From assembly GCF_964020005.1 (NCBI RefSeq), contig NZ_OZ026474.1, positions 682,001 through 746,000 on the forward strand: DNA of 64,000 nt, read 5' to 3'. Below are positions 8,255-56,639 of this stretch, piece after piece; the first letter of the stretch is position 1, and each line of letters begins with the position of its first letter. The notes below the pieces were generated by a model that did not search any database, was not told the origin of the DNA, and was given only the letters and a program-made list of their open reading frames with translations. The position numbers and the translations under genes are program-made. The stretch comes from Spiroplasma endosymbiont of Atherix ibis. GTDB taxonomy: Bacteria > Bacillota_I > Bacilli_A > Mycoplasmatales > Mycoplasmataceae.

Positions 8255-8512
8255 CTTATCACTTATTTCTTAATAATTTAATCATAAATAAAATAAAAAA
8301 AATACCTAGAAAGTATTTATAAATATATTTTGTAAGTATATAAAATATATTTTATTAAAAAGTTGTTTTACTATATTTTCTATAATAAGTTTAATTTTAA
8401 ACTTAAAAGTTTTTTATTTATTTTTTTAGTTTTTATAGTAAGTTACTTTTTGTTATTTAAAATACATATTTATGTCATATAATCAAAGTTTTCAAAAAAT
8501 TAAATCTTTTAA

Positions 8513-52655: not shown

Positions 52656-53513
52656 TTATCCCTTACTAATTAGTTCTTTTAAATATTTACCAACACCATT
52701 ATTATCAATATGATCAATAACTTTTCAAGCTTCTTTTTTTAAATTTTCAACAGCATTTCCAACTGCTATTCCAAATGGCAATTCACTAACCATTTCTATA
52801 TCATTATTGTTATCTCCTATTACATGAATATTTTTTAAATCAACATTCATAATTTCAGCTCATTTTCTTATACCACTAGCTTTATTTATTCCTTTTGGCA
52901 TTGCATCAACTAAAATTCTTGATTGAATTATTGTTGAAGGATGATATAAATTTTTAGACTCTAAATATTTTTTTAAGCTTTCAACTTTTACAATTTCTTT
53001 TTGAAAATCAAGTGAATACATTAATTTAACTGTTTTATGAACATCATTTTTAACATCTTCAATTAATTCATTATAGTTATTATATAAAATAAATTCTGGC
53101 TGATCTTCTTCAAGATAATGACCAGAAATTTTTTTATATGCCTTAACTCTTTCTGCAGTTTTAAGTGCACATAAAGTTGTTGCAGTATATAAAGAAAAAC
53201 TTAAATCATTTTTTATTGAGTATTGTAATAATTCAATTACTAAATCTTTATTCATTACATGTTCATAGTACACTTCTCAAGTTACAGGATCTGTGATTGC
53301 TCCTCCATTTGAACTAATTACAGGTAAAGTTACATTTAATTGTTTAATGTAATACTTCATATTTTGAAATGCTCTTCCTGTGACAATAAAGAATTTATTA
53401 TTTGATTCTTTTTGATAATTATTTATATCATTAACTGTTTCTTCTAATATTTCAAAGTCATTGTTTTTAACAACAGTTCCATCTAAATCGCTTCCAATAT
53501 AAGGTAATTTCAT
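52656..53513 (-). CDS. Cof-type HAD phosphatase
   Basis: 285 residues. HAD motif I GSDLDGTVV (catalytic Asp pair), motif II IVTGRAF, motif III Lys in MPKGINKASGI and motif IV IGDNNNDIEM. The large C2 cap between residues 85 and 190 is that of Cof/YwpJ sugar-phosphate phosphatases. ATG 53513 is chosen for the GGAGG at about 10 nt; an upstream in-frame ATG is less likely. Two TGA-Trp codons. First gene of the operon with nadD and mtn. Intact. Confidence 0.92.
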
Positions 53514-53667
53514 AATCTTATATCCTCCAAAAATGATTCTACAATATAATAAAAAAATAACCATAGTCAATTAATTAAAATAACTATTTTTAAGAATAAA
53601 ACTTGATATAAACTTTTCTAATGTTAATATTTTTAAAATAAAGAAAAATCATTCTAAATTTTTGAAT

Positions 53668-53907
53668 TTATATTTTTTTATAATCTTTTAATAAACAATT
53701 TTCACAATAGTTTTTAACTCTATTTAATTGAGTTATTAGCATATAATTAGAATTATTTTCACATGTTTCACATTTATTTTTATTTGCAATTTTTACATTT
53801 AATTCTTTAATTGCACACTATTTACAAATTAAAGTGATAACATTTAGTTTACTTATTTTCTTAAAATCAGCTTTATTTTTGCAATTAATACATATAAGTT
53901 CTTTCAT
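53668..53907 (-). pseudogene. Small zinc-ribbon protein gene with in-frame TAG
   Basis: 80 codons from ATG 53907. Four Cys pairs (CINC, CK-stop-C, CETC, CENC) suggest two zinc ribbons. A TAG at 53820 sits inside the second pair, probably once CKxC. Frame and spacing are otherwise kept to TAA 53668. Family not recognised. It could be a decayed DNA- or RNA-binding protein. Confidence 0.5.
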
Positions 53908-53983
53908 TATTATCATCTCTTTTCTAATAAATTAATTATATTTTAAATATCTCTAAAGAAATTTATTTTTTAGTAAATTTCTT

Positions 53984-54022
53984 AAAAAATAACTAAAAAA
54001 TTTGATTTTTTAGTTATTTTTT
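53984..54022. terminator. Strong bidirectional hairpin (17-bp perfect stem)
   Basis: AAAAAATAACTAAAAAA, loop TTTGA, exact complement ending T6. It isolates the zinc-ribbon gene from the ncRNA candidate. Part of the 3' arm also supplies the ncRNA -35 region. Confidence 0.8.
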
Positions 54023-54030
54023 GATATATT
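54002..54030 (+). promoter_or_regulatory. Promoter of the ncRNA candidate
   Basis: TTGATT (54002-54007), 17 nt, TATATT (54025-54030). Predicted start near 54037, at the base of the first hairpin. Confidence 0.5.
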
Positions 54031-54036
54031 TAATAT

Positions 54037-54276
54037 TGTCCTTTTGGACACGACTATGATAATTAAAAAATCTAAACAGATTACATCAATTGTCTGTTAT
54101 TTGATTTTTTAATTAATATAATATCCTTTCTTTCGATTTAGGCCACTTATATTTATCATAGTCCATAAGTGGTCTTATTACTCATTCATATCTTTTTAAT
54201 TATTAGCAAATCAATTACATATGCGAAAGCATGATTAATAATATAAAAAAATGCACTTTATAAAGTGCATTTTTTT
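54037..54276 (+). ncRNA. Candidate structured non-coding RNA with pseudoknot
   Basis: No open frame. From the 5' end: hairpin TGTCC-TTTT-GGACA (54037-54050); 12-bp stem 54061-54072/54103-54114 with an inner 6-bp stem; a 10-bp hairpin 54141-54150/54165-54174 whose 14-nt loop contains 11 nt (54153-54163) perfectly complementary to 54052-54062, forming a pseudoknot; a GNRA hairpin ATGC-GAAA-GCAT (54221-54232) closed by ATTATTA/TAATAAT; and a 32-bp palindromic terminator. A G-U pair in the 10-bp hairpin and the GNRA loop favour the plus strand. It does not show the conserved motifs of RNase P, tmRNA or SRP RNA. Confidence 0.55.
54245..54276. terminator. Perfect 32-bp palindromic terminator
   Basis: AAAAAAATGCACTTTA followed directly by its exact complement ending T7. 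It ends the ncRNA candidate on the plus strand and may also serve the minus-strand lipoprotein gene that ends at 54354. Confidence 0.82.
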
Positions 54277-54353: not shown

Positions 54354-56639
54354 CTACAAATATTGATTATAATCTGGATTTTTTTTATTTTTAGAAACAT
54401 TTTTTTCTCAATATTTTATTAATAAATCCTTTCATTTATCAGATATTGCAATTCTATAATTAAATTGATTATATGATTTTTTACTACTTTTTCATCATTT
54501 ATTAATATTTTCAATATCTTGATCTATAGATTTTCCAAAAGTATTAACAGTACCTGCAAAAATATATTGAGTTTGAGAATAATTTCACAAAGTCTCAATT
54601 CCTTGTACAAAAACATTTTCTCTTATTGTAGAATTAATTCACTCTTTATAATCATTTGTTATTAAATTTATTTGTTTGTTTTTAAGTAGCTCATAAAATG
54701 CAATATCATCATCTGCTTTTGCAAAATTAGTATATAAATTAATACTTTTTTTTGAAAAATCCAAACTTACATTTTTAGTGTGAATTTCAAGCTCATCACT
54801 ATTTTTTGCTTTTTCAAATACTTCATGTAATTTATAATTTGAATATTTATTAATTAAAGCTGCTAAATGATAAATTCTTCATGACTCAGCAACTGCTTGA
54901 TCACTATTTTTTGAACCTAATTCCATAGCTTCTTTTAATTTTTCTAGCATTATTGCTTCTAAATTAGCTTGGTTTAGAATGCTAGATGTTGAATCAAAAC
55001 CAAATATATCTAATTCTAAACTTTCATTTGGCAATAGTGATTGATATTTATTTAAAACATTATAAGTTTCTATATTATAAGCTTTATTCATTAATCTTTG
55101 ACTTAAAAAAACATTTCTAAATCCTTTATCTGCAATATACTCATCTTCTGCTCTAGAATCATCAGGAGAATATCATTGTTTTTCACTTCCATCAACTGGA
55201 GTTACTTTTGATCAATAATGAACTTTAAATTTATATGAAGAATCATAGCCAAAATCTAAATAATCTGAGAATTTTACTAAAGCTAAATTTCCTTGTTCAT
55301 TAGTTTTATATAAATTAGCATTTAATCATCCTGTAAAAAAAGCATACTGTCCAGATTCTGGATTATCTTTTTCTCTTGAATCTTCTATGATAGCTCTAAA
55401 AGAATTAAAAAATTCATCTTTATTTACTGATACAAATTCATTATTTTCTGATTGTAATGTATCTATCATATTTGCAAATTTTTTTAATAATTGATTATCA
55501 ATTCATGAATTTTCTTGTGTTATTCTTTTAATATTTTGTTCTAATTTTAGTATCATAGATTTAATAATTAAATCAGCTTCTATTAATTGTTCTTTTATAA
55601 AAACTGGATTTCCATTGCTATCTATAAGATTTCTTCTGTCAATTGAATTTTTAAGCATAACAGCATAAATTTGATTTTTAACAATATTTTCTACTTGTGT
55701 ACTGCTCATTCCTTCACTTAAAAAAATAGGATTATCCAATAGATATTGATTTAAAATAGATTCAATTTCTTTTTGAGAATTTTGTAAAACCATATTTGCA
55801 AAATCTAAGTTAATTACAGTATTATTAATAAAATCAGTTGCACTTGGTGAATAATTAAAAAAGCCTGTAGGTAATTTTGAAGATTCTTTTGAAAGAAGCT
55901 TTTCAAGTTTAAATAAACTTGAAGAATTTGCATATCCTTGATAAATCATACCTTTATTTGGATTTTTTTCATCTAAGAATGAATCTTGTGAATTTGGAAT
56001 ATAAGATGTATCATCACCTAAATGAATTGCCTCTTCATTTGAATCTTTAGGTTGTACTTCTCCATCCTTGTTTGACTTAAGTTTTCTGTTTATATTAACT
56101 CTAGCATAAACTGGATCTTCTATTCCATTTCATCCCAACAATTCTTCATTTAAAAAAGTAACTGATAAAGATCAATTGCTATCTTTTTTAGTCATTCAAC
56201 CACTTACATTATTAAAAAGTGCTAAACTTGTATTTTCATCTTTTACTAAATCTTTTATTGCTCACTGTGATTGTCATGATAATTTATTTGCAATTCATTC
56301 ATATCCCGGTACTTTTGAAGAAATTTCATTTAAAAACTGATTAGACATTATATAAACACCTAAAGTTTTTTTAAGTACTGCTCCATTTGGACTTTTATTA
56401 ATTAGTTCTGTTAAACCAATTGCTTCTACTACTTTATCAATATTTTCATCAGTCATTAAAGAATTAATACGAACTCCATTTTTTACAAGCTGATCTTCTG
56501 TTAAATTGTATATTGATACTATTTTTTCTTGATCAGTATGACTAAGTGACATGTCAAGACCACCATTACAAGCAATAACAGTTGATGAAGAAACTATTGT
56601 TAAACTAAGCACACCTAAAAACGAACATAATTTTTTCAT
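54354..56639 (-). CDS. Large lipoprotein, unknown function
   Basis: 761 residues, uninterrupted, with many TGA-Trp codons. Signal peptide MKKLCSFLGVLSLTIVSSST ends at the lipobox VIACN. The mature part is Asn/Ser/Lys-rich with several aromatic clusters (WSLSVTFLNEELLGW, KFKVHYWSKVTPVDG) and no recognised domain. ATG 56639 follows AAAGGAATG. It lies 37 nt after a codirectional membrane-protein gene, so the two form a unit. Unlike the four IS-linked lipoproteins it is intact and not related to them in the visible motifs. Confidence 0.82.

Follow-up and report, generated by a model that had tools for sequence, protein, structure and literature searches.

What is encoded in the intergenic DNA around positions 54037 to 54276 of the window, that is, of the whole 64,000-nucleotide stretch analysed here from the Spiroplasma endosymbiont of Atherix ibis? 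The segment has no open frame, and a sequence-only reading had proposed in it an undescribed structured RNA with a loop pseudoknot, either new in this clade or a very divergent version of a known one. The locus is almost certainly a real and conserved RNA gene. Judged by its own promoter and terminator and by a structure with compensatory changes in relatives, it is a bacterial intergenic ncRNA gene.

Organization of the RNA gene and its neighbourhood

The gene and its component parts, as delimited in the window, are the following.

54002 to 54030, + strand: promoter (−35 TTGATT at 54002-54007, 17-nt spacer, −10 hexamer at 54025-54030)
54038 to 54276, + strand: whole RNA gene, ~240 nt (homologues, profile, covariation)
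54038 to 54049, + strand: P1, 5′ hairpin GUCC-UUUU-GGAC (96% of cells paired)
54052 to 54062, + strand: pseudoknot 5′ strand, GACUAUGAUAA (in 20 of 20 species, covarying)
54060 to 54115, + strand: P2, long hairpin (fold-based)
54081 to 54092, + strand: M1, in the P2 loop, UUACAUCAAUUG in the window (alignment and folds)
54120 to 54136, + strand: M2, near-invariant CU-rich single-stranded linker AAUAUCCUUUCUUUCGA (alignment)
54141 to 54174, + strand: P3, hairpin with the pseudoknot 3′ strand in its loop (double changes in all 10 pairs)
54153 to 54163, + strand: pseudoknot 3′ strand, UUAUCAUAGUC, within the P3 loop (covariation)
54175 to 54214, + strand: M3, near-invariant stretch of ~40 nt, UUAUUACUCAUUCAUAUCUUUUUAAUUAUUAGCAAAUCAA (alignment)
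54221 to 54232, + strand: P4, hairpin AUGC-GAAA-GCAU (fold and alignment)
54245 to 54276, + strand: intrinsic terminator, 14-bp stem and 4-nt loop (terminator scan)

The proposed promoter TTGATT-17-TATATT was located at 54002-54030 with an extended −10 element containing TG, TGATATATT, and it is conserved in the aligned relatives. Judging from its position, transcription probably starts at or near 54037/54038. The two strong terminators between which the RNA had been placed fared differently. The downstream one is present at 54245-54276, although its 32 bp should read 32 nt, and in aligned relatives a terminator hairpin likewise follows the RNA. It is flanked by T runs on both sides and could thus serve both strands. 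The upstream one is a palindrome of A and T alone that runs into the −35 box; the terminator scan makes no call on it, and it is not retained in relatives. The small hairpins GUCC/GGAC (P1) and GCGAAAGC, the GAAA-tetraloop hairpin, were both confirmed, the latter (P4) reading AUGU-GAAA-ACAU in two species. The outermost 3 bp of P2 compete with the pseudoknot.

Upstream lies a divergent set comprising a HAD-family hydrolase gene (52656-53570) and a decayed small zinc-ribbon-like gene. The remnant of the latter (family F2, 53686-53920, − strand) is apparently broken by an in-frame stop, and open F2 frames adjoin the RNA in nine relatives. Another family, F1 (~400-570 aa), is the divergent upstream neighbour on the − strand in many relatives (L005, L012, L014, L018, L021) and in a sister-genus metagenome-assembled genome (MAG; L114); it has no match in the window's genome, and the one member tested had no Pfam match. 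F1 and F2 come and go among relatives, while the RNA stays. Downstream, a convergent gene (54354-56639, − strand) encodes a large lipoprotein whose N-terminus resembles spiralin (an NCBIfam match below the cut-off), and is often kept as the neighbour of the RNA.

Conservation of the fold and of unpaired stretches

The segment had been singled out as more structured than the DNA around it, and folding bore this out. Without its terminator, the RNA has a better fold than all 200 dinucleotide shuffles (z = −4.2), and with the terminator z reaches −7.2, compared with +0.9 for a nearby control stretch of equal length.

Compensatory changes in relatives, named beforehand as the test of the proposal, were strongly evident for both the pseudoknot and its host hairpin P3. 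The 11-bp pseudoknot read from the letters, 54052-54062 with 54153-54163, was recovered and covaries. Pairing in the pseudoknot and P1 was counted on a plain MAFFT alignment built without structure. Together, the two have 93.5% of their cells paired, where shuffling gives 83% and sliding 28-35%; for the pseudoknot alone the figure is 92%. Cells in which both partners have changed number 36, whereas shuffling yields 11.7 and sliding no more than 9. Double changes occur in 8 of the 10 pseudoknot pairs. For P3, the counts come from an alignment fitted to the P3 model and are biased towards it: 95.7% of cells paired, and 63 double-change cells (shuffled, 19.7; slid, at most 12) spread over 10 of 10 pairs. 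The same hairpin was also recovered from eight deeper sequences aligned without structure. By this comparison of sequences, the RNA structure is under selection, pseudoknot included.

P2 is variable in sequence and length among the 20 species. In single-sequence folds, M1 nevertheless falls into its apical loop in 15 of them, versus 2.8 expected with shuffled flanks. M2 (ACAUCCUUUCUUUCGA) and M3, which follows the pseudoknot, are nearly invariant across the 20 species, apart from a 1-nt deletion in M3 of the homologue L022; in the unpaired stretches it is the sequence itself that is under selection. M1 (ACAUCACUUUC) does not vary among the deeper species, where it reads UACAUCACUUUC, but has decayed or drifted in the subclade of the window. 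M1 and M2 are alike and look like two copies of ACAUC(A)CUUUC. M2 is complementary to the purine-rich, Shine-Dalgarno-like sequence AGAAAGGA, and contains UCCUUUCU, which we take to be the end of the 16S rRNA 3′ tail.

Distribution and relation to known RNA families

The genus of the window was judged to be the Spiroplasma Apis clade, whose genomes include those of S. diminutum, S. taiwanense, S. culicicola and S. apis. A blastn search with the element hit the window's genome and every one of the other 19 genomes in the genus, and a sequence profile found one copy in each of the 20 (E 8e-23 or better). A covariance model run over 298 genomes of the order recovered these 20 at E < 1e-9 and, weakly, one more, G025, a sister-genus MAG (Spiroplasma sp. 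isolate feces_b_bin.14). When the G025 sequence was included in a second covariance model, its own E was 0.0012, and nothing else scored below 0.3 among 40 non-genus genomes of the family. A looser sequence pattern searched over genome contigs also recovers this MAG.

Inspected by eye, the MAG homologue (loci L104/L114) has nearly every part of the RNA: P1 (GUCCC/GGGGC), a perfect 10-bp pseudoknot, GUCGUAAUAA/UUAUUACGAC, whose letters are unlike those of the window, P3 (AAUUGUUUU/AAAACAAUU), AACAUCCUUUCU in M2, AAUUACUCAUUCAUA in M3, the small hairpin and the terminator. M1 was not recognisable. The homologue occupies the same locus, between F1 and the lipoprotein family F0. In other genera, the sequence and covariance models detected only this MAG, their limited reach meaning that absence is to be read as “not detected”; of the weaker matches there, those inspected lie mostly inside coding frames. 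Genus g6 has the neighbour protein F1 with no sign of the RNA beside it, and searches of plasmids and viral contigs for the RNA found none. As far as detected by these searches, the family appears confined to the Apis clade plus a single sister lineage.

Covariance-model searches assigned no known family to the RNA. At the gathering threshold of Rfam 15, neither the window nor eleven homologues matched any family, and the best below-threshold matches to the window fall mainly on the terminator. RNase P RNA, tmRNA and SRP RNA are likewise single-copy structured RNAs of the same genomes, but each is a separate gene with a good score, and the window RNA fits none of their models. The type B RNase P model (RF00011) matches elsewhere (G000 352200-352550, 241 bits), and the SRP RNA gene (RF00169) lies at G000 8349-8446, over the cut-off. 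ARAGORN finds no tmRNA in the window; the real one is at G000:C1:80235-80647, with the tag EEKNEFEMPAFMINNASAGVALAA according to the same program and variant tags in two relatives. A very divergent form of these three RNAs is thereby excluded, and a divergent form of 6S RNA or of another Rfam family, being without a model match, is unsupported. No match to the 6S RNA model (RF00013) turned up in the window's genome, and 6S RNA was undetectable in all six genomes tested, namely the sister-genus MAG and five from the genus. We also found no description of this RNA in the literature searched. It is a genuine new RNA family, absent from Rfam, while the kind of RNA it represents is already known; the comparative data thus support the proposal of a new structured RNA of the clade with a loop pseudoknot.

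Published expression data are available for S. diminutum and S. taiwanense, in which intergenic RNA-seq reads were assembled under coverage cut-offs and the contigs annotated with Rfam, ARAGORN and Bcheck (Lo and Kuo, PMC5726471). In each species the ncRNA loci reported as highly expressed were the same two, those of tmRNA and RNase P RNA (PMC5726471). The window RNA is not among them, and nothing documents it as very abundant during log phase. SRP RNA, encoded by both species, is missing from the list as well, and small RNAs may thus have escaped the method.

Candidate functions

Our preferred reading, to which we assign a probability of roughly 0.4, is that this independent gene specifies a regulatory RNA of the Spiroplasma Apis clade that acts in trans. 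Its mode of action would be pairing with mRNAs, which we propose tentatively, at somewhat under even odds. The pseudoknot and P2 would keep the pyrimidine-rich M1 loop, the M2 linker and M3 open; these stretches could then pair with purine-rich ribosome-binding regions of mRNAs and lower translation, as a multi-site antisense regulator built like LhrC of Listeria. In LhrC, the working parts are CU-rich motifs, which sit in a loop, in a linker and in the terminator loop (PMC4132741). Like the window RNA, it is an independent intergenic RNA with its own terminator, and its CU-rich motifs are unpaired in loop and linker, as are M1 and M2 in the predicted structure. Unlike LhrC, the window RNA has a pseudoknot, is single-copy and is a predicted regulator only, and the comparison implies no sequence homology. 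The UCCC motif of LhrC is absent, the conserved motifs reading ACAUCACUUUC and ACAUCCUUUCUUUCGA. RsaE, RNAIII and FsrA belong to the same class of C/CU-rich antisense sRNAs to which the window RNA is likened.

Target searches lent no support to pairing. A search for a long antisense target of M3 (AAAAAGATATGAATGAGTAA), which allowed up to 2 mismatches and covered 20 genomes, 13 of them in the genus, gave only the RNA itself and isolated matches. One of these, in L127 (G011:C1:921900-923300, 665-684, − strand), agrees in 19 of 20 positions at the start of an uncharacterised gene, within a blastn match of 93% over 30 nt; present in one genome only, it may be a species-specific target or a chance similarity. 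The long M2 complement returned, within the genus, the RNA itself, scattered matches and a repeat in one genome. The repeated sequence, TCAAAAGAAAGGTTGTT, occurs at least 7 times in G016:C1 (678985, 708429, 718810 and others) and is probably part of a repeated element. M1, M2 and M3 showed no preference for Shine-Dalgarno regions beyond composition: for M2 at gene starts, z lay between −0.8 and −1.1, and the positive control, the 16S tail, reached −2.8. Among 200 ortholog triples (~390 kb from each of three genomes, plus the window), no significant conserved target was found, the best M2 target being borderline, with 4% of 25 shuffles as good. Three further observations speak against antisense action, namely the 40-nt invariance of M3, which exceeds the need of seed pairing, the decay of M1 in the window's own subclade, and the absence of the RNA from the highly expressed ncRNAs of the published RNA-seq. 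Since the in silico target tests are unsupportive, antisense action is rated only slightly above a protein-binding role.

Such a role, as an RNP scaffold or sponge in which M1, M2 and M3 recognise a putative protein that the RNA titrates or organises, is a serious rival, to which we give a somewhat lower probability. The failure of target searches to give an mRNA target agrees with it, as do the apparent duplication of one motif in M1 and M2 and the near-invariance of M3 over ~40 nt and of M2 over 17 nt next to covarying helices, a pattern typical of RNPs. However, there is no constantly linked protein gene, given that F1 and F2 come and go.

M1 and M2 might instead imitate the 3′ tail of 16S rRNA and titrate either mRNA ribosome-binding sites or a protein that binds the tail, making the RNA a clade-specific regulator of the ribosome or of translation initiation in general. 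We consider this improbable; if true, the RNA would be a pseudoknot-scaffolded global translation controller in bacteria stripped of most regulators.

Weaker still is the idea that the RNA does the work of 6S, or is some other housekeeping RNA that took its place in the clade. This would account for an RNA that is universal and single-copy in a clade where 6S escaped detection in the six genomes, and 6S is also an autonomous non-coding RNA of similar size (~190-240 nt). The architecture differs, however: the window RNA has a 5′ pseudoknot domain with open linkers, its ends are unpaired, and the long end-to-end stem with a central bubble is missing. Neither the window nor eleven homologues match any Rfam family, 6S included.

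It is very unlikely that the locus is a short coding gene or a dual-function RNA whose conserved 3′ part specifies a small hydrophobic peptide. With TGA read as Trp, a frame of ~25 codons from a GTG near 54170 can be traced by eye in the window copy, but the relatives read share no start and the frame would cross the M3 deletion of L022. Comparison with the relatives shows no conserved reading frame. In M3, first, second and third codon positions are all conserved; elsewhere in the RNA, apart from the unpaired stretches, it is mainly base pairing that is kept. Least credible is a role in cis, as leader or attenuator of an adjacent gene, for which the intergenic position upstream of divergent genes could be cited, because the element is bounded by its own promoter and strong terminator, the next downstream gene is convergent and so cannot have the RNA as its leader, and the RNA persists while its upstream neighbours change.

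Regulatory proteins are very scarce in Mollicutes, and only a few of their non-coding RNAs have been described. The RNA described here has been kept through genome reduction in every sampled species of a diverse clade, and presumably its function is useful. Being one locus with clear bounds and near-invariant candidate binding sites, it offers a handle for direct tests of RNA-based regulation in Spiroplasma.
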